IMG/VR virus record: IMGVR_UViG_3300021356_000145
Span: 1 to 25,989 of that record
DNA: 25,989 nucleotides
From: a virus
Strand: one strand, 5' to 3'
The notes under the pieces are model-generated. The model had not been told where the DNA came from. It saw only the letters and a list, made by a program, of their open reading frames with translations, and did no database searches. Below are positions 2 through 25,989 of this stretch, piece after piece (the first letter of the stretch is position 1; the number at the start of each line of letters is the position of its first letter). The position numbers and the translations under genes are program-made.

Positions 2-196
2 CTTACATCAACTCAAGTTTCCAATCTCTATAATTCTGGGACACCAACTGACCTTACTGCCTTCAGTCCATCAGCTGCTCACGTTTATAGGATGGGTGAC
101 GGTGATACCTTCCCAACTATTGAGGATAGAGTCGGAAACGCAGACCAGACAATGACCAATATGGCATCCTCTAACTTTGTAACTGATACTCCTTGA
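2..196 (+). CDS. 3' end of a probable virion structural protein (partial)
   Basis: An open frame enters from the left edge and ends at a TGA at 194-196, giving 64 residues. The residues are rich in Asn, Thr, Ser, Asp and Gly (for example RMGDGDTFPTI and ending TNMASSNFVTDTP), as in tail or fibre proteins of T4-like cyanophages. No domain can be recognised from this fragment. An extended -10 promoter overlaps its last codons, so the following gene probably starts a new transcript. The coding call is good and the structural role is a guess. Confidence 0.55.
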   Translation, partial: LTSTQVSNLYNSGTPTDLTAFSPSAAHVYRMGDGDTFPTIEDRVGNADQTMTNMASSNFVTDTP

Positions 197-1356: not shown

Positions 1357-1357
1357 G

Positions 1358-1450: not shown

Positions 1451-1460
1451 AGACCTTATA

Positions 1461-12697: not shown

Positions 12698-14242
12698 ATG
12701 AGTTTTGAGATTAGATTGACGGAGGGTAATCACCGAGGTTTCCTTTCCAACTTCATCACTATTTTGACAGGATACAGAGCACTTGAGAAAGCAGGAGTAG
12801 ATCTGGATAAGGTTTGTGTTGATCCTTCAATGTTTATGTTGTATGGCAATCCAAACAACTGGTTTGATCCTGCTAAGGTATCTGATGATGCACCACAGGT
12901 AGCAAATACACAGGACTTGTTTGACTGCGATTATCCTTGGGCATCATTCAGAGATTTTGATCTTAACAAATACAGGAAATACATTCCCTTCAATGATAGG
13001 ATGCAAGCAATCCTTGATAGTATTCCAGCGGAGAAGTATGCAAACTGTTTGGCTGTACATTATCGCGGCACTGATGGTGTGGGTCATACTGAGTTTGTTG
13101 GTGTAGAGAAGTATCTGAATGCAGCAGCAGAAGAACTTGAGTCTGGTGACTATGATGGTATCTTCCTTGCCACAGACCAGACAGACATCGTTGACATTTT
13201 CAAGGAAAGATTCAAGGATGTTGAGGTTCACTGCTATGACCACCAGAGGACGATGAGTAGGGCAGGACTGCACTATTCCATTCAGGCACAACCAAACTCT
13301 CCTGAGAGGATTCTGGCTGGGGATGAGGTGTTGATCGATGCCACTACCCTATCTCTGTGTAAGACGATGATTGGAAAGTCTTCCAACATCACAAACTATG
13401 CACGCATTCTAAATCCATTCTTGGAGACTCTCTACCAAGATTTGGATAGTAGTAATGAGCATGGAGATCATCGTGACTTTAGCGAGCACGGATATATTGA
13501 AAGGTTCCCACAGATTAGAACCAAGGACATTCAACCATTCATCTTTAACTGGAGAAACCAGTTTGAAAAGACCTGCGCGATTGAAGATTCTCTGAAAGAA
13601 ATCTTTGGTGAAGTGACTGTTATCAATAGTGATGAAGAGAATACACGCGAAGGTTGGATTGACCTTGGTGATGAGGCATACTTCACAATGCAGTTCCGAA
13701 AGGCTCTAGAACTTCTGAAACCAGACAAGAAAGTTCTGATGCATTGTCAAGGTGATACTGTGTTTGAAAATTACGAACAACTTGTCAAAGACGCAAGGAA
13801 GTATTATAATCTGTATGAGTGGGGGGTGTATGCTCCTGACGTAACGAACGTCTGGTATACACCTGAGCACACCGACATTGATGGTATTGAATCGGAAGAT
13901 GAAAATATCAAGATGGTTGCTTGTACTGACGAGACGGTATGGTTTGTGCATAGAGACATCATTGATGAATACTATGCAAGGAACTTGCCTGATGTTATGA
14001 CCCACGAACGCATGAAGATGGGTTGGGGATGGGATCTAGTAATGAACGGTATTTCCTTCTTGAAAGGTAGACCCGTCATCCGTGACTATGCCCACCAGAT
14101 TCAACACGCCAAAGGAACCAACTACAATAAGAATTCTGCAGGCGAAGAGATGGCAGGACTTTGGAATAGTCTTCAAGATGATCTGAAAGAATGCATCTCT
14201 TACATCAAAGGAGATAGAGAAAAACTGACTAAGTATTTTTGA
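12698..14242 (+). CDS. Two-domain glycosyltransferase (RGTD domain + second GT domain)
   Basis: This encodes 514 residues. The N-terminal part (1-260) has LAVHYRGTDGVGHTE (118-132) and FLATDQTDI (156-164), paralogous to the fucosyltransferase-like enzyme at 3238. The C-terminal part (about 275-514) starts QIRTKDIQPFIFNWRNQ and contains VLMHCQGDTVFENY and YEWGVYAPDVTNVWYT. It looks like a separate GT-A-type domain common in phage and cyanobacterial polysaccharide clusters. The fusion suggests two successive transfers by one polypeptide. It starts two bases after the cupin stop, with a GGAG-type ribosome site upstream. Confidence 0.68.
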   Translation: MSFEIRLTEGNHRGFLSNFITILTGYRALEKAGVDLDKVCVDPSMFMLYGNPNNWFDPAKVSDDAPQVANTQDLFDCDYPWASFRDFDLNKYRKYIPFNDRMQAILDSIPAEKYANCLAVHYRGTDGVGHTEFVGVEKYLNAAAEELESGDYDGIFLATDQTDIVDIFKERFKDVEVHCYDHQRTMSRAGLHYSIQAQPNSPERILAGDEVLIDATTLSLCKTMIGKSSNITNYARILNPFLETLYQDLDSSNEHGDHRDFSEHGYIERFPQIRTKDIQPFIFNWRNQFEKTCAIEDSLKEIFGEVTVINSDEENTREGWIDLGDEAYFTMQFRKALELLKPDKKVLMHCQGDTVFENYEQLVKDARKYYNLYEWGVYAPDVTNVWYTPEHTDIDGIESEDENIKMVACTDETVWFVHRDIIDEYYARNLPDVMTHERMKMGWGWDLVMNGISFLKGRPVIRDYAHQIQHAKGTNYNKNSAGEEMAGLWNSLQDDLKECISYIKGDREKLTKYF

Positions 14243-14244
14243 TA

Positions 14245-15063
14245 ATGGATAAAAATAAATCTGCTTTCAAGTTACAAGGTCTTCCACACATTTACTGGTT
14301 GAATCTAGATGCTGACGAACAACGTCGCATCTATATGGAAACTCAGTTCAAGTATTGGGAGATTGAGAATCATACTCGTATCTCTGGATTTGATGGCCGA
14401 ACAGATGATTGTGCATATCACCTGAAAGGTAAAGTTCCCGATAATATCTCTCCAGGAGAACTTGGTTGTTGTCTGACTCATATCAAGGCAATCAAGCATT
14501 TCTATGAAGAGACCGATGATGATTATTGTATGATCGTTGAGGATGACGTGAGTTTTGATATCGCACGGTATTGGAACTTTACCTGGAAAGAATTCTTCAG
14601 TCTTGTTCCTTATGATTGGGACTGCCTTCAGTTGACTACAATCTGTACTGGAGACATTCACGTCAAACTTCATCTGAAGTTCATTAATGACTTCTCTGCT
14701 GCCGTCTACTTGATTTCTAGGCACCATGCTGCTAAGATTATCAAGAACCACGTCCGTGGGGATAAGTTCAAACTGGATAATGGAGTTAAACCTAGGGCAG
14801 TATCTGAGGATGTAATCCTTGAGACTGGTAAAACCTATACGATTCCTATTTTCTTGTACAATATGAACTTTGGTTCTACAATACATCAAGAACACATTGG
14901 TGTGTTCCACAAAGGCCCACATGATGCTCTCCTTAACTGGTGGCAACAGACTGGTGCTAGTATTGACATCCGTGATCATATGAACTATGATCCTTATCTT
15001 GGGAGGATTACTGAAAACTCTGCCGCGAAAGCAGCACAGAATTCGGAAAACCAACCAAGTTAA
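14245..15063 (+). CDS. Glycosyltransferase family 25 (LPS-type) protein
   Basis: This encodes 272 residues. IYWLNLDADEQRR (16-28) near the N-terminus, ISPGELGCCLTHIKAI (68-83) and MIVEDDVSF (96-104) are the GT25 signature in order; the EDD group binds the metal-nucleotide. GT25 enzymes add galactose or glucose to LPS or protein. ATG 14245 is preferred to TTG 14239, which lies before the upstream stop. It is the last gene of the operon. No hairpin-T-tract terminator is obvious before the late promoter at 15086. Confidence 0.85.
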   Translation: MDKNKSAFKLQGLPHIYWLNLDADEQRRIYMETQFKYWEIENHTRISGFDGRTDDCAYHLKGKVPDNISPGELGCCLTHIKAIKHFYEETDDDYCMIVEDDVSFDIARYWNFTWKEFFSLVPYDWDCLQLTTICTGDIHVKLHLKFINDFSAAVYLISRHHAAKIIKNHVRGDKFKLDNGVKPRAVSEDVILETGKTYTIPIFLYNMNFGSTIHQEHIGVFHKGPHDALLNWWQQTGASIDIRDHMNYDPYLGRITENSAAKAAQNSENQPS

Positions 15064-15085
15064 CAGATTCTTTGGATTCTGTTAG

Positions 15086-15093
15086 TATAAATA
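15086..15093 (+). promoter_or_regulatory. T4-type late promoter
   Basis: TATAAATA is identical to the T4 late promoter core recognised by gp55-type sigma. It lies 105 bp before the beta-barrel gene, giving a leader of about 95 nt. Confidence 0.8.
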
Positions 15094-15099
15094 CTTAAC

Positions 15100-15197
15100 C
15101 TTTTGTTGTAATATAACAGAAGGTAACAACGGGGAGTTGTCGATTCCCCTTTCATCTGCGGGTAACCATTCCGCAAGTAAACAAAGAGGTAAAACAA
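15100..15197 (+). other. Structured 5' leader of the beta-barrel gene
   Basis: The leader holds GGGGA...TCCCC (15131-15149 region) and GCGG...CCGC hairpins, then an AGAGGT ribosome site at 15185-15190, eight bases before ATG 15198. The hairpins may protect the message or tune translation. Confidence 0.45.
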
Positions 15198-15569
15198 ATG
15201 ATCAAATCTGTATTCGCAGCTACTGCTGCTCTGTCTATGTCAGCAGGCGCTGCCCTTGCAGGCCCATATGTAAACGTGGAAACCAATGCCGGTTGGACTG
15301 GTTCTGATTACGAAGGTGCGGCTACCGATCTGCACGTAGGTTACGAAGGCGCTCTCGGTGAGCGTGGTTCTTACTACGTCCAAGGCGGCGGCACCATCCT
15401 GAGCCCTGACAGCGGCGACAGCGAAGTTGTTCCTTCTGGTAAGGCAGGAATCGGTTTCGAAGTCACCGAAGCACTGGGTGCATATGGAGAGGTCTCCTTC
15501 GTTGGCTCTGGCGATGACGACCTGGACAAGGGTTACGGCGCTAAAGTCGGCCTGAAGTACAACTTCTGA
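15198..15569 (+). CDS. Small secreted outer-membrane beta-barrel-like protein
   Basis: This encodes 123 residues with a signal peptide MIKSVFAATAALSMSAGAALA cut before GPYV. The mature chain has alternating hydrophobic and polar strands (for example YYVQGGGTI, LGAYGEVSFV, YGAKVGLKYNF) separated by Asp/Gly turns and ends in Phe, the usual outer-membrane assembly signal. About 100 mature residues fit a small barrel of roughly 6-8 strands. It has a strong ribosome site and its own late promoter and terminator. GC content is higher than in the rest of the window (many GGC, GAC and CTG codons), suggesting high expression or host origin. It is a paralogue of the gene at 15794. Its role in the infected outer membrane is unknown. 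Confidence 0.78.
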   Translation: MIKSVFAATAALSMSAGAALAGPYVNVETNAGWTGSDYEGAATDLHVGYEGALGERGSYYVQGGGTILSPDSGDSEVVPSGKAGIGFEVTEALGAYGEVSFVGSGDDDLDKGYGAKVGLKYNF

Positions 15570-15793: not shown

Positions 15794-16150
15794 ATGAAAA
15801 GCATTGCAGTTGCCCTGCTCGGTTTGGCGATTACCGCCCCAGCAATGGCAGGTCCATACGTAGAGTCCAAGCACGAGTTCAAGGGAACTGATGAGGACTT
15901 TACTAAGCAAGTCCATCAAGGTCGTGTGGGATATGAATGGAAGTTGGGTAAAGCAACCCCTTACATTGAAGGTGGTCTTGGTGTCGCTACTCCCGATGGT
16001 GGTGACAACGAAACCTTCACTGCTCTAGAGATTGGTAGTAAGTATAAGATCACCGATAGTTTCTCTGCTTATGCTAAGTATGAGAACATCTTCCAAGAAG
16101 ATGACACCACTGATTGGAAAGTTGAACTCGGCACCAAGTACAAGTTCTGA
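15794..16150 (+). CDS. Secreted outer-membrane beta-barrel-like protein, pstS partner
   Basis: This encodes 118 residues with a signal peptide MKSIAVALLGLAITAPAMA cut before GPYV. The mature part shares its start AGPYV, a GYE..LG segment, a P-D-G-G-D-N/S-E turn and the terminal GTKYKF/GLKYNF with the gene at 15198, so the two are tandem paralogues. The final Phe and alternating strands suggest an outer-membrane barrel. The gene lies 10 bp before pstS with no terminator between, so the two form an operon. It may widen outer-membrane passage for phosphate, which is inference from context. Confidence 0.75.
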   Translation: MKSIAVALLGLAITAPAMAGPYVESKHEFKGTDEDFTKQVHQGRVGYEWKLGKATPYIEGGLGVATPDGGDNETFTALEIGSKYKITDSFSAYAKYENIFQEDDTTDWKVELGTKYKF

Positions 16151-16160
16151 TAGGAAATAA

Positions 16161-17123
16161 ATGAAACTCAAAGCACTCGCAGCAGTTATTGCTGCCACTC
16201 CTCTGATGGTTGCCTGCGGTAGCGCAGAGAAAACTTCTTTCAAATTGAATGGCGCAGGTGCTACCTTCCCTGCTCCACTTTATAATGCATGGTTCGCATC
16301 TTTTGCTAAAGAAACTGGCAATCAAGTGAACTACCAAGCAGTTGGTAGTGGTGCTGGTGTTCGTCAGTACACTGCTCAGACTGTTGACTTCGGTGCCAGC
16401 GATGGTGCTGTGTCAGATGCTAAGCAGAAACTGCCGATGATTCATATTCCTATGACTGGTGGTGCCATCGTTCCTGCTTATAATCTTCCTGGATGTGATG
16501 CCAAGATGACTCAGACTCAACTTGCTGATGTCTTCCTTGGTAAGATTACTAACTGGAGCACCTTTGGTTGTGCTAATAAGCAGATCGTCACTGTTCACCG
16601 CTCTGATGGTAGTGGTACTACCAAAGGATTTACCAATTCCCTGTCTGCATTCTCTCCTGAGTGGAAGAAGACTGTAGGTGTTGGTAAATCAGTGAAGTGG
16701 CCTGTTGGTATTGGTGGTAAAGGTAACGCTGGTGTTGCTGGAGTCATCAAGAGTCAAGTTGGTGCTATTGGATATTTGAACTATGGTTATGTGAATGGCG
16801 ACAAGTTCCAACAGGTTGCTCTGCAAAACAAGGCAGGTAACTTTGTGAAAGCAAACAGTGAAACTTCTGCTGCAGGTCTTGCCAAGATTGTTCTAGACGA
16901 TAAACTTCGCGGAGCAGATCCTAACCCTGCAGGTGCCAATGCTTATCCTATTGTGTCCCTGACTTGGATCCTTGCTTATCCTGAATCCAAAGATGGAGTA
17001 AAGGAAACTCTTCGTTTTATGTTGAGTGAAAAGTCGCAATCGATTTCAGATTCTCTGGGATATGTACCTCTCCCTGAGTCTCTTCGACAGAAATCTCTTG
17101 CTGCTGTTGACACTATTAAGTGA
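16161..17123 (+). CDS. pstS: Phosphate ABC transporter substrate-binding lipoprotein PstS
   Basis: This encodes 320 residues. The signal MKLKALAAVIAATPLMVAC ends in a lipobox-like MVAC with Cys19 as the lipid anchor. LNGAGATFPAPLYNAW, AVGSGAGVRQY, FGASDGAVSD and RSDGSGTTKGF are PstS phosphate-binding and fold signatures. PstS binds periplasmic phosphate and passes it to the PstCAB permease, which the host supplies. AGGA sits 5-6 bases before ATG 16161. The pairing with an upstream barrel gene and a candidate Pho box fits expression under host phosphate stress, which has been shown experimentally for pstS of a related cyanophage. A T/P unit follows. Confidence 0.96.
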   Translation: MKLKALAAVIAATPLMVACGSAEKTSFKLNGAGATFPAPLYNAWFASFAKETGNQVNYQAVGSGAGVRQYTAQTVDFGASDGAVSDAKQKLPMIHIPMTGGAIVPAYNLPGCDAKMTQTQLADVFLGKITNWSTFGCANKQIVTVHRSDGSGTTKGFTNSLSAFSPEWKKTVGVGKSVKWPVGIGGKGNAGVAGVIKSQVGAIGYLNYGYVNGDKFQQVALQNKAGNFVKANSETSAAGLAKIVLDDKLRGADPNPAGANAYPIVSLTWILAYPESKDGVKETLRFMLSEKSQSISDSLGYVPLPESLRQKSLAAVDTIK

Positions 17124-17144
17124 TAATTAAGTAATAGTTACTAC

Positions 17145-17174
17145 AAAGAGGGCCTTGACAGGCCCTCTTTTTTT
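17145..17174 (+). terminator. Rho-independent terminator fused to hli promoter
   Basis: The 11-bp stem is AAAGAGGGCCT (17145-17155) with AGGCCCTCTTT (17160-17170), capped by a TGAC tetraloop and followed by more T to 17174. It ends the pstS transcript. Confidence 0.93.
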
Positions 17175-17183
17175 CTATATAAT
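17155..17183 (+). promoter_or_regulatory. Consensus sigma70 promoter of hli cluster
   Basis: A perfect TTGACA (17155-17160) spans the terminator loop. A perfect TATAAT (17178-17183) lies after exactly 17 bp made of the 3' stem and T-tract. Transcription would start near 17190, 20 bases before hli. Both boxes match consensus fully. Confidence 0.85.
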
Positions 17184-17209
17184 ATGTAAAGATTTACAAC
17201 ATTAAGTAA

Positions 17210-17413
17210 ATGACTGTAACAACAAATGAATATGGGCAACAGAATCTCTTTGCTAAAGAGCCCCAAATGGTTGTAGAATCTTATAACCGTAAGGGTCTTG
17301 AGTCTCCCCAACAATACGCAGAGACTTACAATGGTCGCTGGGCAATGATGGGTATCGTCTCTGGATTCCTGTCCTATGCAATCACTGGTAAATTCTTCTT
17401 CGGTATCTTCTGA
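17210..17413 (+). CDS. hli: High-light-inducible protein (Hli)
   Basis: This encodes 67 residues. The C-terminal half carries the LHC-like motif AETYNGRWAMMGIVSGFLSYAITG (about 38-61), with the Glu, Asn and Arg of ExxNGRxAM that bind chlorophyll, within one transmembrane helix. Hli proteins protect photosystems against excess light and assist pigment delivery to PSII during repair. The N-terminal 35 residues are hydrophilic (NEYGQQNLFAKEPQMVVESY) and longer than in the minimal Hli at 17837. It is transcribed from the strong promoter 27 bp upstream. Its stop overlaps the next start (TGATG). Confidence 0.92.
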   Translation: MTVTTNEYGQQNLFAKEPQMVVESYNRKGLESPQQYAETYNGRWAMMGIVSGFLSYAITGKFFFGIF

Positions 17414-17499
17414 TGACCGCAGCACTGTTTACCGCAACTTCGGTTGCATTCTTTGTACTTCTTTCCTATTCTGTAGAACAACTTTCTGAGACTTACTGA
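17413..17499 (+). CDS. 28-residue single-span membrane microprotein
   Basis: The protein MTAALFTATSVAFFVLLSYS continues for eight residues (VEQLSETY). One hydrophobic helix covers about residues 4-20. Start and stop each overlap neighbours in TGATG form, which supports translation. It resembles in size the small subunits of photosystems and cytochrome b6f, but I cannot match it to PetG, PetL, PetN, PsbN, PsbT or PsaI. Location between hli genes suggests thylakoid targeting (inference). Confidence 0.62.
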   Translation: MTAALFTATSVAFFVLLSYSVEQLSETY

Positions 17500-17687
17500 T
17501 GCCTGACATTGCTGAACTGCTTACTTATTATGTGATTGCGAGTCTCCTATTCGTAGGAGCACCAGCAGTTTTCTTTCTGATTGCCTTTATGCCAGCCCTT
17601 CAAAATACTAAGGGCCGTATGGTAGGATATAAGGACCATAAGACTTATGGTGATTCTACTATATACGAAGTTAACAGAACTATTTGA
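17499..17687 (+). CDS. 62-residue membrane protein, unknown, photosynthesis context
   Basis: It begins MPDIAELLTYYVIASLLFVG. A hydrophobic segment of 25 or more residues (about 8-34, with GAPAVFFLIAF in the middle) is followed by a basic tail PALQNTKGRMVGYKDHKTYGD. This looks like a single-span (or tight double-span) protein with a positively charged C-terminus. It is not recognisable as PsbZ, PsbN or PsbX. The start overlaps the previous stop. It may interact with photosystems alongside Hli. Confidence 0.68.
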   Translation: MPDIAELLTYYVIASLLFVGAPAVFFLIAFMPALQNTKGRMVGYKDHKTYGDSTIYEVNRTI

Positions 17688-17688
17688 C

Positions 17689-17844
17689 ATGCCAGACCCA
17701 GATGCACTTTGGAAGGATATTCAGAAACTCGACGACATGTACGAAGAGTTGCTTTGGCATCCTGACGACGAATTACAATTCACACATGATGGCAAACGAG
17801 TCATCATTATTAATAAAACACTAGAGGAACAAGAAAATGTTTAA
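17689..17844 (+). CDS. 51-residue acidic soluble protein, unknown
   Basis: It begins MPDPDALWKDIQKLDDMYEE. The protein is acidic, helical and without a membrane segment, and ends VIIINKTLEEQENV. ATG 17689 starts one base after the upstream TGA; an in-frame upstream start at 17647 would lie inside the previous gene. Its stop overlaps the second hli gene by 8 bases, so it probably couples to it. Function unknown. Confidence 0.62.
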   Translation: MPDPDALWKDIQKLDDMYEELLWHPDDELQFTHDGKRVIIINKTLEEQENV

Positions 17845-17947
17845 TGAAAAAGCAGAAAAACTGAATGGTCGTGCAGCAATGGTTGGATTCATTGCAGCAG
17901 TAGGTTCTTACCTTGCAACTGGTCAAGTAATCCCAGGTGTATGGTGA
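17837..17947 (+). CDS. hli: Minimal high-light-inducible protein (Hli)
   Basis: This encodes 36 residues beginning MFNEKAEKLNGRAAMVGFIA and ending VGSYLATGQVIPGVW. The EKLNGRAAMVGF chlorophyll-binding core is exact and almost the whole protein is one helix, the shortest common Hli form. It overlaps the upstream stop by 8 bases, and a GTG at 17944 overlaps its own stop. It acts in the thylakoid membrane of the infected host in photoprotection, as for the gene at 17210. Confidence 0.93.
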   Translation: MFNEKAEKLNGRAAMVGFIAAVGSYLATGQVIPGVW

Positions 17948-17952
17948 ACGAT

Positions 17953-18078
17953 ATGTTACTCATTGCAGCTTCCATGATAGGAGGGTTTATCTTTGCCGCC
18001 CTATTGACTGATGGAAATGTTGATGATGATGACGACATGAGTGGTGGGATGATGATTCCCGCAGCCAACGAAATCTAA
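17953..18078 (+). CDS. 41-residue membrane microprotein with Asp run
   Basis: It begins MLLIAASMIGGFIFAALLTD, one hydrophobic span of about 18 residues. The rest is acidic and Gly/Met-rich (five Asp in a row, then MSGGMMIPAANEI). An alternative GTG start at 17944 adds three residues and overlaps the hli stop. It closes the hli unit, and a terminator follows 7 bases later. No family with known function is recognised. The hydrophobic helix with acidic tail resembles small membrane proteins common in T4-like cyanophages. Confidence 0.65.
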   Translation: MLLIAASMIGGFIFAALLTDGNVDDDDDMSGGMMIPAANEI

Positions 18079-18084
18079 ATAGAG

Positions 18085-18110
18085 GGAGATCTTGACGGAT
18101 CTCCTTTTTT
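18085..18110 (+). terminator. Rho-independent terminator fused to lysis-region promoter
   Basis: The stem is GGAGATC (18085-18091) with GATCTCC (18098-18104), the loop is TTGACG, then six T. The loop is exactly the -35 box of the next promoter. TCTAAATA (18073-18080), a late-like box, overlaps the preceding stop. Confidence 0.9.
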
Positions 18111-18120
18111 AATGTAATAT
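18092..18120 (+). promoter_or_regulatory. sigma70 promoter before the endolysin
   Basis: TTGACG (18092-18097) forms the terminator loop and TAATAT (18115-18120) follows after 17 bp. The start would lie near 18127, leaving an almost leaderless message for ATG 18133. Confidence 0.65.
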
Positions 18121-18132
18121 AGGTTTGTTCAA

Positions 18133-18714
18133 ATGAGATTTATGATTTCGTCACTAATTGGTACGCTTGGTGCGTCAGCAGCTCTAGTTGCATTTTTTAC
18201 AAGCATAAAGACAGCAGAAGTGCAACCGATTGTGGTTCAACCTTATATTCCAACTACTTGGGAATGCCCCGATTGCACTCCATCAGAACAATACGTGCTA
18301 GAGCAACTTCAAGAAAAAACTAACATTAAGGATAGAAATGCTCTGGCAACGATTTTGGGGAACATTAAATCAGAAAGTAACTTCCATGCCAATATATGTG
18401 AGGGAGGTGCTAGAGTTCCTTACCCTGATTGTCATCGGGGTGGTTACGGGATCATTCAGTGGACCACTGAGAGCCGTTATATGGGGTTAGGATTATTCTG
18501 TAAAAAGTATGGTTGTGATCCCAGTAGTCTGGAAGGTCAGACAAGTTATATGATTAATGAAATCCACTTTCAAAAGGTTCTTCCAGATTTTGAAGGTAGT
18601 GGACAAACAGTCAGTCAATATATGACTCCCTCTTACCGTTGGTTGGGATGGGGGATCAAGGGTCACAGAGAGACCTATGCATACGATTACACAAAACGAA
18701 TGGTACTGGTATGA
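18133..18714 (+). CDS. Phage tail-lysozyme-type endolysin with N-terminal anchor
   Basis: This encodes 193 residues. Residues 70-180 match the phage tail lysozyme family (PF18013): ATILGNIKSESNF with probable catalytic Glu81, GGYGIIQWT (103-111), GLGLFCKKYG and SSLEGQTSYMINE (131-143). It cleaves peptidoglycan glycan strands. The first about 24 residues (SSLIGTLGASAALVAFFTS) form a moderately hydrophobic Gly/Ala/Ser-rich helix, which fits a signal-anchor-release endolysin that reaches the periplasm without a large holin hole. Five Cys in the mature part suggest periplasmic disulfides. An in-frame ATG at 18142 is an alternative start. Confidence 0.82.
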   Translation: MRFMISSLIGTLGASAALVAFFTSIKTAEVQPIVVQPYIPTTWECPDCTPSEQYVLEQLQEKTNIKDRNALATILGNIKSESNFHANICEGGARVPYPDCHRGGYGIIQWTTESRYMGLGLFCKKYGCDPSSLEGQTSYMINEIHFQKVLPDFEGSGQTVSQYMTPSYRWLGWGIKGHRETYAYDYTKRMVLV

Positions 18715-19115
18715 TCAATACAATCACAGCGGCACTTAAAGACATTCTTGCAGAATTCGGGTTTACAAAAACAATCACTGATGATGAGATTGAATGTGCA
18801 ATTGACGAGAACATTGTAGACTGCACAGAGATGGAAGAAGAACCCTATACTGGTGTACCTGCACCAGTAGTTCTTACAGAAGATCCCTGGTTTGGTCCTG
18901 CTGTGGTCTCAGATGCTAATAAAGACTACATGGAACGTGAGTATGAAGTATTCAAACAAGATGCTTTGAATTACTATTCAGATAGTAAAGAACCTGAGAA
19001 CATTCATCAGGTAATGTATGAGATGGCAACAAACAATGCTGCCACTACGCTTCAACTTGATCCCATTGGCGGATCCGAAAACTTTCAAGGCGGTTCAGAA
19101 AATGTCCATCGATGA
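18711..19115 (+). CDS. Acidic protein of unknown function
   Basis: This encodes 134 residues beginning MINTITAALKDILAEFGFTK. The chain is strongly acidic (TDDEIECAIDENIVDCTEMEEE) and ends in an Asn/Gly-rich tail (IGGSENFQGGSENVHR) with a near repeat of GGSEN. No membrane segment or signal peptide is seen. ATG 18711 overlaps the endolysin stop (ATGA). Possibly a scaffold, inhibitor or virion-associated protein; not recognised. Confidence 0.65.
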   Translation: MINTITAALKDILAEFGFTKTITDDEIECAIDENIVDCTEMEEEPYTGVPAPVVLTEDPWFGPAVVSDANKDYMEREYEVFKQDALNYYSDSKEPENIHQVMYEMATNNAATTLQLDPIGGSENFQGGSENVHR

Positions 19116-19323
19116 TTGGCGCTACAGTGATCAGAAGATGAAAGTTAGGGAACAGGCACTCAAAGTTTTGCTTTCAAAGTTTGGAGGACAAATGGAGGGT
19201 CCCCGACCTAAATACTCTAGTCAATCAATCTACGAGTGTGCTCAAGACTGGGTATCTCAGGGCAATATGCATACTGCAGGGATTGTAAAATATTACGAGG
19301 CATATTATGCAAAAAGTAATTAA
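19102..19323 (+). CDS. Small phage protein, unknown function
   Basis: This encodes 73 residues beginning MSIDDWRYSDQKMKVREQAL, basic and helical, with FGGQMEGPRPKYSSQS in the centre and a YYEAYYAKSN end. ATG 19102 is preferred because it lies just inside the previous gene (14-base overlap). It shares 17 bases with the next gene. Family unknown. Confidence 0.62.
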   Translation: MSIDDWRYSDQKMKVREQALKVLLSKFGGQMEGPRPKYSSQSIYECAQDWVSQGNMHTAGIVKYYEAYYAKSN

Positions 19324-19549
19324 CGTCTTAGCAGTCCTATCATTTGTAGGAACTGCGGGTATCATCGGCGGAGGAACAGTTGTTTATTTGCGCCGAGATG
19401 CTATCATTGAACAAGTAAAGGAGAATGTTGCTAAAGCAGCAACAGAAGCAATCGCAGAATCACTTCCTGCTATGCTTGACGCTGCTGTTCCTGAACTTCC
19501 CTCTACAACAGGTGGAGCACTTCCACCATCTACCATTCCTTCTTTCTAA
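19307..19549 (+). CDS. Single-span membrane protein, unknown
   Basis: This encodes 80 residues with an N-terminal span VINVLAVLSFVGTAGIIGGG (about 4-23). An amphipathic Ala/Glu helix (EQVKENVAKAATEAIAESLP) and a Pro/Ser/Thr-rich tail PELPSTTGGALPPSTIPSF follow. It overlaps the upstream gene by 17 bases and ends one base before the next ATG. The topology (anchor, helix, flexible tail) would fit an envelope or lysis accessory protein. Confidence 0.65.
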   Translation: MQKVINVLAVLSFVGTAGIIGGGTVVYLRRDAIIEQVKENVAKAATEAIAESLPAMLDAAVPELPSTTGGALPPSTIPSF

Positions 19550-19550
19550 T

Positions 19551-20222
19551 ATGAAAAAGATTATTATGAGTCTGCTGGCAGCAGCATCACTTGCTGCTCC
19601 TGCTGTTGCTGACCCAATCACTGAAGATGATTACAATACGAATCATGCCATGGGTTGTATGCTCTTACGCGAATGTACCGATGGAGTCAAAAAAGTCACT
19701 AGTCTTTTGGATATTGCTAGTGAGTATTCCAATACTATTAGTTTTACTACAATTGCTTTTGAGTTCAACTCCATGCTTACATCCCTTAGTAGGGTCGGAG
19801 TTAATGTGTTTCTAGCAGATGAAAAGTATTTCCCATTCGGACACCGTGGTGTCTATCATACTGTGGGTAATAATTTCTTCTTGAACAAACGTCATATGAG
19901 TCGTCCACACATTCTTATGAGTGTGATGCGTCATGAAGGATGGCACGCTGCACAGGATTGTATGGCAGGCACTATTGATAATAGTTTGATTGCTATCATC
20001 AAACCTGAAGAAGAAGTTCCTGCAATGTGGAAAGAGTTGGTTGAACGTACATATCCTAAATCAGCACAACCTTGGGAAGCAGAAGCAACCTGGGCAGGTA
20101 AGACTGCTGGTATGACACAGAAAGCACTTGCTGCCTGTGCCACTGGAAAGATGTGGGAAGTGTATGAACCTACACCATTGACCCGTGAGTTTCTTGTCGA
20201 GAAAGGGTACATTGCTAAATAG
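19551..20222 (+). CDS. Secreted HExxH protein (putative zinc metallopeptidase)
   Basis: This encodes 223 residues with signal peptide MKKIIMSLLAAASLAAPAVA cut before DPI. SVMRHEGWHAAQDC contains HEGWH (128-132), the HExxH zinc site, in a hydrophobic helix context. Downstream QPWEAEATWAG offers Glu176 or Glu178 as a third ligand, as in gluzincins (HExxH ... E). Cys36, Cys42 and Cys137 could pair in the periplasm. ATG 19551 is chosen because it starts the signal peptide one base after the previous stop. It may be a periplasmic or envelope protease acting at lysis. I do not recognise a named family, so activity is a prediction. Confidence 0.7.
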   Translation: MKKIIMSLLAAASLAAPAVADPITEDDYNTNHAMGCMLLRECTDGVKKVTSLLDIASEYSNTISFTTIAFEFNSMLTSLSRVGVNVFLADEKYFPFGHRGVYHTVGNNFFLNKRHMSRPHILMSVMRHEGWHAAQDCMAGTIDNSLIAIIKPEEEVPAMWKELVERTYPKSAQPWEAEATWAGKTAGMTQKALAACATGKMWEVYEPTPLTREFLVEKGYIAK

Positions 20223-20243
20223 CATTGCCTTTGCTGTTGACTC

Positions 20244-20693
20244 ATGCCTGAAGAAGTAAAGAAGGAAGAAGTTAAACAAGAAAAACCAAAAGGACCATTA
20301 GGAAAGTTGAAAGAAAAGGTAGAGGACTCTGAGGAGCACCTTGCCATTCTTTCAACTTTTGTTCGTTTAGGGATTCTTGTTTGGTCTGGTGGTATCTTGA
20401 CACTCAACTACGTCACGATTCCTAACTTGCCACAACAGAAGATCGATCCGACTTTTATAGCCAGTGTCTTCACTGGAGTTTTGGCCACGTTCGGGGTCCA
20501 GACAGCGAAGAAATCTAATGATGGCACGATGAAGATGCAGAACGGTGGTGCCGCAGCTGCTGGTGGTGGAATCACTAAGGCAGACCTTGAAAAACTGATT
20601 GCTGCTGCTAAGGAAACAGCACCTGCTCAGACCATCAGAGTAGAGCAAGGCCCAATCAAAATCGTAACCGATCAACCTCCATACAAGATGTAA
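20244..20693 (+). CDS. Two-span membrane protein, holin candidate
   Basis: This encodes 149 residues. The N-terminus is highly charged (MPEEVKKEEVKQEKPKG...). Two hydrophobic spans follow, about 34-57 (AILSTFVRLGILVWSGGILTL) and 69-87 (TFIASVFTGVLATFGVQTA). After these come a Gly/Ala linker (GGAAAAGGG) and a charged tail ending DQPPYKM. A short protein with two spans and charged termini near an endolysin is the usual holin plan, but no specific holin family is recognised. Confidence 0.6.
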   Translation: MPEEVKKEEVKQEKPKGPLGKLKEKVEDSEEHLAILSTFVRLGILVWSGGILTLNYVTIPNLPQQKIDPTFIASVFTGVLATFGVQTAKKSNDGTMKMQNGGAAAAGGGITKADLEKLIAAAKETAPAQTIRVEQGPIKIVTDQPPYKM

Positions 20694-20695
20694 CC

Positions 20696-21277
20696 ATGAA
20701 ACCTTATCTCAAGTGGACTGCCATCAGTATTGGTGGTGTCGTAGCAATCGCACATGTCGGTGTGTTGGGGCATTTAATTGGCAAAGATTCAGTTGTTGGA
20801 CCCCCAACTATTAATATTCCGAATGGTACACCATACTCTTCATATAAAATTGAAGCAGATAAGGAAGGATATAAAATTGAATATAAAGCAAATGATCCTG
20901 CTATTTTAGAATCTCAGAAATCTTTGAGTCTTGATAAAGAGAAGAAGGGAATCTTTGGTTTTGGTGCAGGAAATGAGAGAAGAAGAGAGTGGAGACGCGA
21001 TCAATTCACTATGCATGGTACTCGAAACTTAGGAGGTGTCGCTGATGGCGGCGAGGGAAAGTTAACTGCGAAAGAAGAAGAGTGTCTCGTGGCGGACGCT
21101 GGAGCACGGTCACAAGGTGCGATGGCAGGTAGTGCTATAGCTGCTGGTGTTGGTGTTCCTGCAGCAATGAGTATTCCCTATGTTGGATGGTTAGCAGCAG
21201 GTTGGACTGCTCTCATAGGTCAACAGGTTGGTGAGACTGTTGGATCAACTGTAGGTGGTGTATTCAACGATTGCTGA
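20696..21277 (+). CDS. Membrane protein with Gly-rich C-terminal domain, unknown
   Basis: This encodes 193 residues. An N-terminal span (about 8-28, TAISIGGVVAIAHVGVLGHL) precedes a polar part with KIEADKEGYKIEYKAND and NERRREWRRDQF. The C-terminal 60 residues (AMAGSAIAAGVGVPAAMSIP, then GQQVGETVGSTVGGVFNDC) look like a glycine-zipper membrane region. Glycine-zipper segments occur in pore-forming and membrane-inserting proteins. Starts 2 bases after the holin candidate. Function not recognised. Confidence 0.6.
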   Translation: MKPYLKWTAISIGGVVAIAHVGVLGHLIGKDSVVGPPTINIPNGTPYSSYKIEADKEGYKIEYKANDPAILESQKSLSLDKEKKGIFGFGAGNERRREWRRDQFTMHGTRNLGGVADGGEGKLTAKEEECLVADAGARSQGAMAGSAIAAGVGVPAAMSIPYVGWLAAGWTALIGQQVGETVGSTVGGVFNDC

Positions 21278-21480
21278 TGAACTTTGAACTGACAATGGAG
21301 GAGTTCACGATTATCCAGAACGCCCTCCATTACTATAAACATGTTGAGAAACGCGGACATTTCCAACAATATGATATTGAACGTATAAATCGTTTAAGAG
21401 ATAAACTCTCTTACCAATTGATACCTAGTCCGAATAGTAAAGATGGAACTGTTCCTTCGCCCCCTAGAGAATCCAAATGA
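21277..21480 (+). CDS. Small helical protein, unknown
   Basis: This encodes 67 residues beginning MNFELTMEEFTIIQNALHYY. The Met-Glu-Glu-Phe, IIQNALHYYKH and DIERINRLRDKL pattern is typical of short helical phage proteins of unknown role. ATG 21277 forms TGATG with the previous stop. Its last 13 codons overlap the next gene in another frame. Confidence 0.6.
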   Translation: MNFELTMEEFTIIQNALHYYKHVEKRGHFQQYDIERINRLRDKLSYQLIPSPNSKDGTVPSPPRESK

Positions 21481-21640
21481 CCCCGTATGGAGTGTAATTA
21501 TTTCCATAATCATACTTTTAGTGGGTGTTGGATATTGTATTGTCTATATAATGTCGATGGCTTTTGATGAATTGAACCATGACTACAATAAATCAGAAGG
21601 ACGCGGATCAGGATCAACTGATAGCCCTCCTGACGCATAG
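21443..21640 (+). CDS. Single-span membrane microprotein
   Basis: This encodes 65 residues: PLENPNDPVWSVIISIIILL leads into one span (about 16-41), then an acidic and Gly/Ser tail (DELNHDYNKSEGRGSGSTDS). It overlaps the preceding gene by 38 bases and the following one by 62, both in different frames. Such nesting is common for small lysis genes. Function unknown. Confidence 0.58.
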   Translation: MELFLRPLENPNDPVWSVIISIIILLVGVGYCIVYIMSMAFDELNHDYNKSEGRGSGSTDSPPDA

Positions 21641-21896
21641 AGTTGAAGACGCTGAAAAAATGTCACAGGAACTCCGTGATCGTGTTCGTAAATTAGAACG
21701 CTGGGTTTGGGGTGCAGGTGCTGTAATCTCTGCTGCAATTACAATTATTGGCATTGCGATAGCAGTGGAATCAAAACCCGCACATGCTTTTACTGATGAT
21801 AGTTTAACCGATGCTCCTTGTGCCACTGAATTGGCTGCTCAAAGTCTTGTAGAAGAAGTCAGCATTAGACAAAAATCCTCAGAGGAGAAAGAGTAA
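21579..21896 (+). CDS. XhlA-like membrane protein (coiled coil + one span)
   Basis: This encodes 105 residues. HRVEDAEKMSQELRDRVRKLERWVW (about 20-44) is a coiled coil directly abutting a span GAGAVISAAITIIGIAIAV (about 46-64), the layout of hemolysin XhlA/holin-associated proteins. After the span comes a polar C-terminus with one Cys. Such proteins associate with holins at the membrane. It starts 62 bases inside the previous gene, and its stop shares one base with the nuclease ATG. Confidence 0.6.
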   Translation: MTTINQKDADQDQLIALLTHRVEDAEKMSQELRDRVRKLERWVWGAGAVISAAITIIGIAIAVESKPAHAFTDDSLTDAPCATELAAQSLVEEVSIRQKSSEEKE

Positions 21897-22357
21897 TGGG
21901 TGCAATGGTTCCGCCAAGTCGTAAGAGTTGTTACAATTTTAGAGTGGTATCGATAGATAGAGTGTTGGATGGCGACACTATCGATGTCACGATTGATCTC
22001 GGTTTTGACCTTTATAAAAAAGAGAGAGTTAGAGTTGCTGGTGTGGACACACCAGAGAAAAGAACCCGCGACCTTGAAGAGAAAGCACTTGGAATCGATG
22101 CAACAAACTGGCTCAAAGAGAAGTTAGATGGTGCTATTTCTGGCGAAGACGAACTCGCTGTTAGAACTGAACTTGTTGGTGGTATGGGTAAGTATGGTCG
22201 CCTTCTTGGTTGGTTATATATTGGAGACGCAGAACTATCATTAAATGAGCAAATGATCACCGAAGGATATGCATGGGCATACGATGGTGGAACCAAACAA
22301 AAGAACTTTGAAGAGTTGCGTGAGATCCGTAGAGCACACGGTACATTAATTGACTGA
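21896..22357 (+). CDS. Staphylococcal-nuclease-like (thermonuclease) endonuclease
   Basis: This encodes 153 residues. RVLDGDTIDVTID (22-34) carries the calcium Asp. RVRVAGVDTPEK (44-55) carries the catalytic Arg46, Asp51 and Glu54. GKYGRLLGWLY (98-108) supplies the second Arg (Arg102), and LNEQMITEGYAWAY closes the OB fold. All catalytic residues of the family are present. No signal peptide is present, so it probably works in the cytoplasm on host DNA or RNA. It is coupled to both neighbours by one-base overlaps. Confidence 0.88.
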   Translation: MGAMVPPSRKSCYNFRVVSIDRVLDGDTIDVTIDLGFDLYKKERVRVAGVDTPEKRTRDLEEKALGIDATNWLKEKLDGAISGEDELAVRTELVGGMGKYGRLLGWLYIGDAELSLNEQMITEGYAWAYDGGTKQKNFEELREIRRAHGTLID

Positions 22358-23130
22358 TGCCAATCCCTGATATACGAATTAATCGACTTAATATCAGGGA
22401 TATTTTTATTCCTGGAAATCTGACAACTCAACCACCCATAGCATTGCCTATACAACCACCTGTCACATCGATGGTTGGTGTTCCTATTGTTAATATGCCT
22501 GGGTGTGTTGAGGCACACAAAGATAGTGGTAAAAATGTAAATCTGAAAGATGCTGACGATAAGGGTGTTATGACTCTGTGTGATGCAGGGACACCCTATT
22601 TCGTTGCTATTGATTATAATGCAAATAAAATAGAACTAGAGCAAGAACCTCCTAAACCACCACCAGTAGCACCACCAAAAGAACCAAAATCTCCAGAGAC
22701 TAAAACTCCACCAGTTCCTAAGACTGAAGCACCATTACCTGAGTGTCCTACAAGAGCACAACAGTTAAAGGATCCTGTCGGAAAGATTGTAGAAGGAAAT
22801 AAAAAAATTGTTGCATATGAAACGGTCGGGAAAGAATGTCTCCCTGTATTTGAGGAGTTGTCTATCCCTGACCAGATTATTCAAAACATACCATCACCAG
22901 GTATGGTGACTACTACCGCCTCCATTGCGGTGGTAGCGACGAGTTCTGCACTGCTCGCAAAGCCTCTTGCTGATCTTTTGTTAAAGGTTGTGAAACCGGT
23001 AGTGAAGAAGGTACTGAAGAAGATTGCGACCTTACGGGGTAAGAAGATCCCGCCGCAGACGGTACGGGAGAAGCGGCAGGAGCAGCGGTTGCGGAACCAC
23101 GCGATTCGGAAGTTGAAGGGGAGGGAATAG
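22357..23130 (+). CDS. Proline-rich protein with C-terminal membrane span and basic tail
   Basis: This encodes 257 residues. The N-terminus is MPIPDIRINRLNIRDIFIPG, then a domain with Cys50, Cys75 and ADDKGVMTLCDAGTPYFVAI. A Pro/Lys/Glu linker follows (PPKPPPVAPPKEPKSPETK, about 98-128), a third Cys-bearing stretch, a span about 184-208 (ASIAVVATSSALLAKPLADL) and a very basic tail. Residues 186-257 lie over the end of the opposite-strand gene. In that stretch codons switch to CGG, CCG and ACG, which are scarce upstream. A virion or membrane role is possible; no family with known function is recognised. Confidence 0.7.
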   Translation: MPIPDIRINRLNIRDIFIPGNLTTQPPIALPIQPPVTSMVGVPIVNMPGCVEAHKDSGKNVNLKDADDKGVMTLCDAGTPYFVAIDYNANKIELEQEPPKPPPVAPPKEPKSPETKTPPVPKTEAPLPECPTRAQQLKDPVGKIVEGNKKIVAYETVGKECLPVFEELSIPDQIIQNIPSPGMVTTTASIAVVATSSALLAKPLADLLLKVVKPVVKKVLKKIATLRGKKIPPQTVREKRQEQRLRNHAIRKLKGRE

Positions 23131-23881
23131 AATGTCTATGCGGTTTGATATAAGACACGTTATTTACAACCACGTCCGCACATATTCCCCTGTAAGGGCT
23201 AGCTGGGTGAAAAGTAATTCCCTGCTTTTTTAACTCACCACAATTCTTAAGTCTAGCCAATTCAAAGTCTAATCTCTTGTTAGCAAGCAATTGACCCTGT
23301 AAAGCGATCTGTGTTTCTGCTGCTTGCTTACAACGTTCTTGTAATCCACCATCAAGTGGAAAAGAAATTGTTGCAGATAAGCCAATACTAGTACTGAAGT
23401 TTCTGGTCATACCAGTTCTTACCGGTTTCTGCCAGAGAACTTTACCTGGATTATCGGGAACACCATCTCCCTGCATTTCCATAACAGTGATGGTCATATC
23501 TGCGCCATCTTCATATGCTCTTACTGTTTCGCCATCAGCATTGACATAAGTTCTATCGTCATACCATTCTTCCCAAGGGTGATTCTTTACAGTTTTTTGA
23601 ACTTCTACCATCCTTCCTTCAAAGTCTCTTGCATCATATTGAGGTTCATTATAATAAGTTTCAAATGGTTCTTTATCGTTTCTAGCGTGTGTAAAATACG
23701 GGGTAAAGTTAGCAGTTGGCCCTTGGCAACTGATCACACCCCCGTAAGTATTAGTGATATATGGACCCTGTAAAACCTGGATGGCCTGGTTGGTCACAGA
23801 ACCCGATGAGTTTGCGATTGGATTAGCAGTCGCAGAAACACCTCCCACATCAGCAGCACTGACGGGGGAGGATACTAGCAA
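22913..23881 (-). CDS. Secreted protein, unknown, irregular start
   Basis: The reading frame codes for a protein with a hydrophobic leader (YLYPVIALLVSSPVSAA), then VGGVSATANPIANSSGSV, an acidic middle (HPWEEWYDDRTYVNADG), a helical part (ERCKQAAETQIALQGQLLAN) and a Pro/Ser/Ala-rich tail ending VQNSSLPPQWRR. TTG 23881 is the only canonical start near the leader but cuts it. The leader reading extends up to Lys at 23905, inside the preceding gene, and the next canonical start is an ATG at 24178. ATT at 23887, overlapping the upstream stop, is another possibility. The last 72 codons are antisense to the plus-strand gene. The 5' end is uncertain. Confidence 0.6.
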   Translation of the reverse strand: MLVSSPVSAADVGGVSATANPIANSSGSVTNQAIQVLQGPYITNTYGGVISCQGPTANFTPYFTHARNDKEPFETYYNEPQYDARDFEGRMVEVQKTVKNHPWEEWYDDRTYVNADGETVRAYEDGADMTITVMEMQGDGVPDNPGKVLWQKPVRTGMTRNFSTSIGLSATISFPLDGGLQERCKQAAETQIALQGQLLANKRLDFELARLKNCGELKKQGITFHPASPYRGICADVVVNNVSYIKPHRHSIPSPSTSESRGSATAAPAASPVPSAAGSSYPVRSQSSSVPSSLPVSQPLTKDQQEALRAVQNSSLPPQWRR

Positions 23882-23886
23882 CGCAA

Positions 23887-24357
23887 TTACTGGGTAAAGA
23901 TACTTGTGGTATCCGTTACGCTTGTAACTTCTGTTGTCCTTTGGATTATAGTTTGATTCGTCATTCCTGGTCCCATGTAAGACGACGTGAATTGGAACGC
24001 TTCTCCTGGTTTTGTTATAGTGAAGTTTGCATTGGAGAAGTTTAATCCAGTTGTCGAACTTGTTACCTGTCCTTCGATTCCTCCCAATGGAGTCACATTC
24101 ACGTTGTTGGTTACTGTTGGGGGAAGAAGTGACGCTCCGTTGTTGGATACGTTTGTTCCCGAAACTGAATATTGCCATCCTGTTGCATAGTCTATAGAGT
24201 TGATTGTCTCAGTTTGCTTAGAAGTCGTTTCAGTGTGGCTGGTCATTGAACCCTGTGTAAAGTTCGGGACTACTGGAACCGCCCCAGCAGATTGAACCAG
24301 TCCGTGAAGAACTCCAAGAACCAATCCGAGACCGATTGCTTCTTGTAATCTATCCAT
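23887..24357 (-). CDS. Secreted or surface protein, unknown (paralogue of 24357-24860)
   Basis: This encodes 156 residues with N-terminus MDRLQEAIGLGLVLGVLHGL, a hydrophobic anchor or signal, followed by a Thr/Ser/Asn-rich chain. QYSVSGTNVSNNG and GEAFQFTSSYMGPG closely match QYSVSGSNVGTSDG and GEAFSFSTSFLQGD of the neighbouring gene, so the two share a repeated module. Its ATG overlaps the upstream stop (TAATG). The low-complexity beta-rich composition suggests a surface or fibre-like protein. Function unknown. Confidence 0.68.
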   Translation of the reverse strand: MDRLQEAIGLGLVLGVLHGLVQSAGAVPVVPNFTQGSMTSHTETTSKQTETINSIDYATGWQYSVSGTNVSNNGASLLPPTVTNNVNVTPLGGIEGQVTSSTTGLNFSNANFTITKPGEAFQFTSSYMGPGMTNQTIIQRTTEVTSVTDTTSIFTQ

Positions 24358-24860
24358 TAGTCGATCACCGTGATTTCACTTACAAATTGACCGACAGCAG
24401 TAGATCCAGATCCGCCAGCTGTAATCGAAATAGCACCATCAGTACCAATTGTACCAGCAAGATTACCTGCAGTACCTGCAGTATAAGAAGTCTGACTAGA
24501 GAAGTTACTAACTTCACCAACAGTAGGAGCACTCGTGCTCAGAGCATCACCTTGTAAGAATGATGTACTAAAGGAGAATGCTTCTCCACTTGTAGCATCT
24601 AATTGGCTTGCTGTGATAGTACCAGGAGAATAAACTCCACTGCTTACAGTTCCACTGGTCAGCATCCCTGCAGTTGTACCATCAGAGGTACCAACATTAC
24701 TTCCCGACACGGAGTATTGGTTGCCCAGTCTAGTTGCAGTAGATCTTGCAGAATCAACGGTCAGTTGAACTGAGGAAGACATACTATGAACAAGTCCACC
24801 AGCATTGGCTGCACTTGCGCTCATCAATAACATTACAATGGGAAGAAATCTTCTCATCAT
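24357..24860 (-). CDS. Secreted Ser/Thr/Gly-rich protein, unknown
   Basis: This encodes 167 residues from ATG 24860 (a second ATG follows at 24857). The signal peptide MMRRFLPIVMLLMSASAANA is cut before GGL. The mature chain is Ser/Thr/Gly-rich, with YSVSGSNVGTSDG and GEAFSFSTSFLQGD motifs shared with the next gene and a C-terminal AGTIGTDGAISITAGGSGS. An upstream in-frame start at 24896 would place the signal peptide internally and lies before the late promoter box, so it is rejected. First gene of the minus-strand unit. Possibly displayed on the infected cell surface or in the virion. Confidence 0.72.
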   Translation of the reverse strand: MMRRFLPIVMLLMSASAANAGGLVHSMSSSVQLTVDSARSTATRLGNQYSVSGSNVGTSDGTTAGMLTSGTVSSGVYSPGTITASQLDATSGEAFSFSTSFLQGDALSTSAPTVGEVSNFSSQTSYTAGTAGNLAGTIGTDGAISITAGGSGSTAVGQFVSEITVID

Positions 24861-24879
24861 GTATACCGATATAGATCTG

Positions 24880-24887
24880 TATTTATT
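24880..24887 (-). promoter_or_regulatory. Late promoter for the minus-strand secreted-protein unit
   Basis: On the minus strand the sequence reads AATAAATA, matching the NATAAATA form reported for cyanophage late promoters. It lies about 20 bases before ATG 24860, so the leader is very short. No Shine-Dalgarno is visible. Confidence 0.55.
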
Positions 24888-24943
24888 TAGAGACAAACTT
24901 TTTCTAGATCAATTTTAAGTTTAGGACGATACCATTTATGGCC

Positions 24944-24972
24944 TTGACAGGTGGGGTAAACCCTAGTATTAT
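24944..24972 (+). promoter_or_regulatory. sigma70 promoter of psbA
   Basis: TTGACA (24944-24949) and TATTAT (24967-24972) are 17 bp apart. CCT-TGAC-AGG around the -35 is a remnant of the terminator loop seen at 17145, without the long stem or T-tract. The predicted start is near 24979, leaving a leader of about 165 nt. Confidence 0.7.
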
Positions 24973-24977
24973 AAATA
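24970..24977 (+). promoter_or_regulatory. T4-type late promoter of psbA
   Basis: TATAAATA overlaps the last three bases of the sigma70 -10 box, so early and late polymerases would start within a few bases of each other. TATAAATC at 25050-25057 is a weaker second match. Confidence 0.7.
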
Positions 24978-25004
24978 AGTCAACGGATTAAGAAACATAA
25001 AGTT

Positions 25005-25033
25005 CCTTAAACTGCTGTAAACACTCCTTAAAC
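25005..25033 (+). repeat. Direct repeat CCTTAAAC, 21 bp apart, in psbA leader
   Basis: CCTTAAAC occurs at 25005-25012 and 25026-25033, two helical turns apart, each followed by a G one or two bases on. It lies in the transcribed leader and could be a DNA operator or an RNA site. Confidence 0.45.
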
Positions 25034-25069
25034 CGAGACCTATAGGGTGTATAAATCACGTCTCTAATA

Positions 25070-25092
25070 TCTAACCTGGAGGGTAGGTTAGA
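25070..25092 (+). promoter_or_regulatory. psbA leader hairpin with GGAGG in loop
   Basis: The 8-bp stem TCTAACCT (25070-25077) with AGGTTAGA (25085-25092) encloses GGAGGGT. It can be extended by AATAT/ATATT with a one-base bulge. The loop is a perfect Shine-Dalgarno sequence but lies about 60 bases before ATG 25143, and no Shine-Dalgarno is adjacent to the start codon. It may bind a protein, a small RNA or the 30S subunit in standby. Confidence 0.55.
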
Positions 25093-25142
25093 AATATTTT
25101 ACTTAGTGTTCCCCGCACTTATACTTAACCCTTTAACGACAA

Positions 25143-25989
25143 ATGGCTCAAACAACTCTTTCGCGTCAGCAAGGCGCGTCCACTTGGGATAACTTCTGCG
25201 AGTGGGTAACTTCAACTAACAACCGTCTCTATGTCGGTTGGTTCGGTGTGCTGATGATCCCAACTCTGTTGGCAGCAACCATCTGCTTCATCACTGCATT
25301 CGTCGCTGCTCCCCCTGTGGACATCGACGGCATCCGTGAACCAGTCGCTGGTTCTCTGATGTATGGTAACAACATCATCTCTGGTGCTGTTGTTCCCAGC
25401 TCCAACGCAATTGGTCTTCACTTCTATCCCATCTGGGAAGCAGCATCACTCGACGAGTGGCTGTACAATGGTGGTCCTTACCAACTCGTAGTTTTCCACT
25501 TCCTCATTGGCGTCTTCTGCTACATGGGTCGTGAATGGGAACTCTCCTACCGCCTTGGAATGCGTCCTTGGATCTGTGTTGCTTACTCTGCACCTGTTGC
25601 AGCAGCATCCGCAGTCTTCCTGGTCTATCCTTTCGGTCAAGGTTCCTTCTCTGACGGTATGCCCCTCGGCATCTCTGGTACGTTCAACTACATGCTTGTC
25701 TTCCAAGCAGAACACAACATCCTGATGCACCCCTTCCACATGTTGGGTGTCGCTGGTGTCTTCGGTGGTTCACTGTTCTCCGCAATGCATGGTTCACTGG
25801 TTACTTCTTCGCTGGTTCGTGAAACCACCGAAACCGAGTCCCAGAACTATGGTTACAAGTTCGGTCAAGAAGAAGAGACCTACAACATCGTTGCTGCTCA
25901 TGGATACTTCGGTCGTCTGATCTTCCAGTATGCATCGTTCAACAACTCCCGTTCACTTCACTTCTTCCTGGCAGCATGGCCTGTCGTTG
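25143..25989 (+). CDS. psbA: Photosystem II D1 protein PsbA (5' part)
   Basis: The first 282 codons of D1 run off the right edge, starting [18 protein letters not shown]. Core motifs are intact: [52 protein letters not shown] with the redox tyrosine (canonical Tyr161, here 162), [10 protein letters not shown] with the manganese ligand Asp (canonical 170), [12 protein letters not shown] with His190 and His198 equivalents, and SAMHGSL. Phage D1 replaces the rapidly photodamaged host D1 so that light reactions continue through infection. The position equivalent to residue 130 is Glu (GREWELS), the high-light D1:2 state. No intron is present in the visible part. Confidence 0.98.

Follow-up and report, generated by a model that had tools for sequence, protein, structure and literature searches.

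We identified, in the 25,989 nt of viral DNA analysed here (the window, identical to its source record of 25,989 bases), two sites at which a sigma70-type promoter and a T4-type late promoter octamer are stacked in one fixed register, one upstream of psbA, which encodes the photosystem II protein D1, and the other upstream of an outer-membrane-like Phage_OMP gene. The virus, a marine T4-like cyanomyovirus, has Bellamy and S-SM2 as its nearest GenBank relatives over the remainder of the window. New in this analysis is that the stack is a rare and specific promoter type of psbA and Phage_OMP. It is likely that it acts as a dual-use promoter, used first with sigma70 and then with the phage late sigma gp55, and that the same device serves both genes.

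Upstream of psbA (25143..25988, + strand; ATG at 25143, truncated by the window end and annotated as psbA/D1 in the phage matches), inspection of the sequence revealed a -35 hexamer TTGACA (24944..24949, +), at the offset conserved in psbA relatives, followed after 17 nt by a -10 hexamer TATTAT (24967..24972, +), whose leading TA is conserved in the stacks of relatives. Compared with a sigma70-type promoter (TTGACA as -35, a 16-18 nt spacer and a TATAAT-like -10 with an initial TA and a final T), the site has 11 of 12 matches. An exact T4-type late (gp55) octamer, TATAAATA (24970..24977, +), shares positions 24970-24972 with the -10, so that the three-base overlap claimed in the earlier note is exact letter by letter, and the stack lies 165 nt upstream of psbA.

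Puxty et al. (2018; PMC5931967) described, upstream of cyanomyoviral psbA, a -35 in one motif and a -10 with a gp55 site in another, with early-and-late expression retained. The -10 and the gp55 site are likewise joined in one motif upstream of psbA here, and given this precedent the psbA stack of the window is a further example of an arrangement already published, with the same gene, the same motif split and the same proposed early and late use. On the other hand, the fixed register across diverged phages, Phage_OMP and the unstacked forms do not appear in section 6 of that paper. Two overlapping late-like octamers (TCTAAATA and AATAAATA) were also observed on the minus strand at 24880-24891, just before the divergent phrog_564 gene, and with them the psbA upstream region resembles a pair of divergent late promoters.

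Taken singly, the two motifs are close to their chance frequency in the window, as would be expected of a chance overlap in A+T-rich DNA. The sigma70 site at 24944 ranks second among the 21 sites of 16000-25989, where 18.9 sites of any quality were expected, and is thus weak evidence by itself; the same applies to TATAAATA, with 2 occurrences in the window versus 0.97 expected. Full stacks, defined in the simulations as NATAAATA preceded at exactly 26 nt by TTGACA (at least 5/6), with the -10 beginning in TA, were found twice in the window versus none in each of 200 Markov simulations, and each of the two exact TATAAATA octamers present in the window has a -35 at the identical 26-nt offset. 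Allowing for one mismatch at most, the pattern of the stack matched 29 times in 12 complete cyanophage genomes, while the reversed control gave no match. Conservation across relatives is strong evidence that the stack is real, and it refutes a chance overlap, to which we assign next to no probability. A scan of viral contigs with the stack pattern, which returned at least 120 stretches, many of them probably due to chance, was set aside. A perfect TTGACA-17-TATAAT promoter is also present at 17145-17183 (+); it begins within a terminator-like hairpin that follows pstS, and it precedes an hli gene (17210-17413). A comparable site, TTGACAGGGTTCC...TATAAT, is present in S-SM2 and Bellamy.

We collected 93 psbA loci (80 viral loci, 12 from named phages and the window), of which 79 were usable (with a suitable ATG and no fewer than 60 nt of upstream sequence), and 69 upstream regions were retained after the removal of near-duplicates. 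An [AC]TAAATA late site was detected in 46 of the 69, with 50 sites in total. At 40 of these 50 sites, distributed over 40 of the 46 regions, a -35 hexamer (at least 5/6 to TTGACA) was located exactly at -26, whereas at any other offset between -45 and -15 it was found at no more than 4% of the sites. The initial TA of the -10, for which no selection was made, was present in 40/40 stacks versus 2/10 of the other psbA late sites. These two results speak against the view that only the late half works and that the -35 and -10 matches are coincidental, a view which we regard as very improbable although at Phage_OMP the octamer has no stacked -35 in about half of the late sites.

The late octamer of the relatives occurs as NATAAATA and NCTAAATA. 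The variable position of TATNATAAATA is a weak position of the -10. In the cyanophage late consensus NATAAATA, as given in PMC2984593, the first base is free, and the variable position coincides with this base as well. The spacers between the hexamers of the psbA stacks showed a mean identity of 36%, versus 26% expected from composition, and 19 of the stacks are independent at less than 60% spacer identity. Such spacers are little more alike than random sequence, and the fixed bases are thus not explained by shared ancestry alone.

When the selection was reversed and made on the sigma70 site, 41 of the 50 such sites upstream of viral psbA had AAATA following in register. In host psbA, a sigma70-like site was found in 10 of 78 loci, and AAATA followed none of the 10; the host -10 criterion (5/6 + 5/6) was stricter by one match than that of the viral count (4/6). 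The 78 host loci were the usable ones of 80 and came mostly from freshwater and filamentous species other than the phages' own hosts. This agrees with Puxty et al. (PMC5931967), who reported no motif common to S-PM2d and host psbA. The remaining 29 of the 69 viral psbA representatives have no exact stack; most of them have neither motif, and some may not be T4-like phages.

The difference between viral and host loci bears on another explanation, in which only the sigma70 half works and AAATA is an A+T-rich stretch that aids the opening of that promoter. It is consistent with the psbA forms that have the sigma70 site only (P-SSM4 and the loci L026 and L029) and with the middle-class psbA of P-HM2. 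However, AAATA is also rare at the other sigma70 sites of these phages: TTGACA-17-TANNNT, in the six genomes for which the listing was complete, gave 137 sites, and the 9 stacks among them each precede psbA or Phage_OMP. In addition, late-only Phage_OMP forms retain the octamer with no -10. We therefore consider a promoter working through its sigma70 half only to be unlikely, though it is the most probable of the alternatives to a dual-use stack.

The specificity of the stack was also evident when the gap was left free. In the 12 genomes, TTGAC-N(8..38)-ATAAATA had 39 matches, 16 of them at the single gap of the stack, and the CTAAATA version had 21 matches, with 6 at that gap. Among these 22 exact-gap matches, 10 are before psbA and 7 before Phage_OMP; the others are upstream of psbD in S-PM2, upstream of talC in P-SSM4, before a small gene of P-HM2, within a gene of S-PM2 and at 153287 in P-SSM4. 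With up to one mismatch, the psbA stack is present in 10 of the 12 named phages, including Syn9 and S-PM2 (W08 135214-135247), and S-SCSM1 has a variant of it with an 18-nt spacer. S-T4 and S-SM2 carry the stack at psbA and at Phage_OMP alike. CTAAATA is a recurrent late variant in these phages and is also the late consensus given for phage Aeh1 (PMC1524935). The upstream regions of gp23, intended as a late-gene positive control, did not serve as one: [AC]TAAATA was present within 150 nt in only 3 of 12 genomes, a count in which some sites may be coding coincidences and the Syn9 frame was wrongly chosen.

The second stack of the window (15060..15093, +) consists of TTAACA, 17 nt and TAGTAT overlapping TATAAATA (15086-15093), with the same 26-nt offset as at psbA. 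It precedes the Phage_OMP gene (PF24653, phrog_417; older annotation DUF680 / T4-GC 241) at 15198..15569 (+), which was assigned by Pfam (166.6 bits) and PHROGs. The TTAACA of this stack covers the stop codon at the end of the glucosyltransferase gene upstream (14239-15063), and in Bellamy and S-SM2 a TTGACA likewise lies over the glucosyltransferase stop codon. A second Phage_OMP copy, at 15794-16150 (+) directly before pstS, has neither the stack nor the leader RNA described below, and similarly the second copies in other phages have no stack or leader RNA.

We found 98 Phage_OMP places, of which 97 were kept and 62 remained after the removal of near-duplicates. Among these 62 upstream regions, 21 have an exact stack, 22 have an unstacked late site and 19 have no late site. 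A separate sigma70 site within 300 nt was detected in 19 of the 22 regions with an unstacked late site, compared to about 3% in shuffles, and NATAAATA was present in 19 of the 41 non-stack regions, versus a simulated mean of 2.6 and a maximum of 11. In Syn9 and Syn33, the late and sigma70 sites of Phage_OMP lie apart, and two well separated starts are predicted there. Both inputs are thus kept at Phage_OMP even when they are unstacked, which is an argument for independent function of the two halves, and from their sequences the sigma70 half and the late half look like working modules. The same observation weighs against the composite being a single site that serves one polymerase modified by the phage, or one activator, namely a cyanophage class of middle promoter, as a single site would not tolerate halves lying apart before one gene family. 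The very rigid register and the restriction to two gene families would suit such a single site, as would the statement in PMC2984593 that cyanomyoviruses have no MotA/AsiA and that their middle mode is unclear; we nevertheless find it improbable.

We found no description of the Phage_OMP stack in the literature on cyanophage DUF680 / PhCOG173. The word "promoter" is absent from PMC9146016 and PMC6224464, and promoter passages of PMC3037559 make no mention of this stack. Phage_OMP itself was reported to be under strong host-dependent selection in evolution experiments (PMC6224464).

Both stacks are followed by a structured leader. In the psbA leader, cmscan identified a PhotoRC-II RNA (RF01717) at 25009..25105 (+), with 77.5 bits versus a gathering threshold of 39, and PhotoRC-II is likewise found in the psbA leader of 10 of the 12 named phages. 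S-PM2 has the psbA stack with no PhotoRC-II match, and thus PhotoRC-II is an element separate from the stack. The loop GAGAC of PhotoRC-II is complementary to a downstream GUCUC, within 60 nt, in 31 of the 32 psbA representatives that have the loop. A pseudoknot in the psbA leader is therefore possible, with the reservation that the letters are invariant and so do not prove the pairing. Elsewhere in the window, a wcaG RNA (RF01761; 93.7 bits) is located at 1354-1451 (+), before the gene starting at 1521.

In the Phage_OMP leader, a two-hairpin RNA was identified at 15119..15189 (+) from covariation and from our model R1, to which the window, one of its 43 training rows, scored 80.3 bits. The same RNA was found in Phage_OMP leaders of the loci L358-L445. 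The alignment comprised 42 loci and the window, chosen from 80 distinct leaders, mostly of genes starting at locus position 1501. Over 12 pairs, 98.8% of the cells of these 43 sequences pair and 8 pairs change on both sides, counts which lean to the regular members since leaders of divergent shape were excluded (e.g. L361, L364, L377, S-RSM4, P-HM2 and P-SSM2). The covariation score was 0.497, compared to 0.200 (sd 0.014) for shuffles and no more than 0.209 for slid alignments.

The covariance model gave one match each in 10 of the 12 genomes, 5 of which had also supplied training rows, and the match was always just upstream of Phage_OMP; in genomes with two Phage_OMP genes, it precedes the first. 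In S-PM2 the model found no match, and neither the Phage_OMP gene nor the RNA is present there, while in P-HM2, which also had no match, either the strict filter missed the RNA or the RNA has diverged. Against Rfam 15, the Phage_OMP leader had no match at gathering, and the matches obtained up to E = 10 were all at chance level. Judged by Rfam 15 and the literature search, the leader RNA is an undescribed family.

The arrangement of the stack suggests how a dual-use promoter may be read. The host RNA polymerase with its housekeeping sigma would recognise TTGACA-17-TATTAT, most likely from the middle phase, and later a polymerase equipped with gp55, the phage sigma, and both bound and activated by the replication clamp, would recognise TATAAATA, which reuses the last three bases of the -10. 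In sigma70 promoters, the -10 ends at -7. From consensus geometry, in which the late octamer is at -13 to -6 (PMC1524935), starts are predicted at ~24979 for sigma70 and at ~24983 for the late polymerase, namely 26-30 nt before PhotoRC-II. As these starts are only ~4 nt apart, the leader and the D1 message would be identical in both phases. The two polymerases would be mutually exclusive at the stack, so that the site would change hands and its output would not be doubled. An identical device would drive the Phage_OMP gene at 15198. gp55 is not encoded in the 25,989 bases of the record; g55 was present in all cyanophages sequenced up to the date of PMC2984593.

The earlier note had proposed that host sigma70 and the phage late sigma start nearly the same transcript, with the sigma70 half as an early promoter. 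The first part is in line with two overlapping, separately conserved elements and with the closely spaced predicted starts, but the term "early" is probably wrong for psbA. Doron et al. in 2016 reportedly assigned host-like promoters to middle genes in Syn9. The auxiliary metabolic genes of P-HM2, including psbA, were placed exclusively in the middle cluster (PMC5082946), and in S-PM2d under high light the rise in psbA message, in its spliced form, was most pronounced late in infection (PMC5931967). Taken together, these reports favour a "middle plus late" reading over "early plus late". Although the stack is present at psbA of P-HM2, expression of that gene peaks in the middle class, and strong late use is thus not obvious in that phage. 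For the further proposal that D1 is made throughout infection, production in the later part is plausible, and a benefit for the supply of D1 may follow.

Two other known systems resemble the stack. In RB49-type phages, a sigma70 early promoter and a late promoter overlap instead of a MotA middle promoter, which was proposed for S-PM2 and Syn9 too (PMC2984593); that arrangement was invoked there for homologues of T4 middle genes, whereas the stack here marks psbA and Phage_OMP. The T4 late promoter, served by gp55, gp33 and gp45, has the TATAAATA octamer in common with the stack (PMC1524935, PMC2988020). However, T4 late promoters have no conserved -35 (PMC2988020), and the stack conserves one, which would serve the other polymerase.

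It is conceivable, though we put it at slightly less than an even chance, that psbA and Phage_OMP, sometimes with psbD or talC, form a small regulon, switched on by the host polymerase in the middle phase and kept on with gp55 late, through promoters that share bases, in which each message has its own structured leader and the Phage_OMP leader belongs to an undescribed RNA family controlling the translation or stability of a host-envelope phage protein. For psbA, the stack offers a sequence-level account, already published, of how D1 messages may persist from the middle to the late phase with a constant leader. The extension to Phage_OMP matters more, as a rare device marks one other gene family and would link both as one regulon. 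The stack gives a testable start-site prediction for psbA and Phage_OMP, and the leader RNA of Phage_OMP offers a concrete new target.
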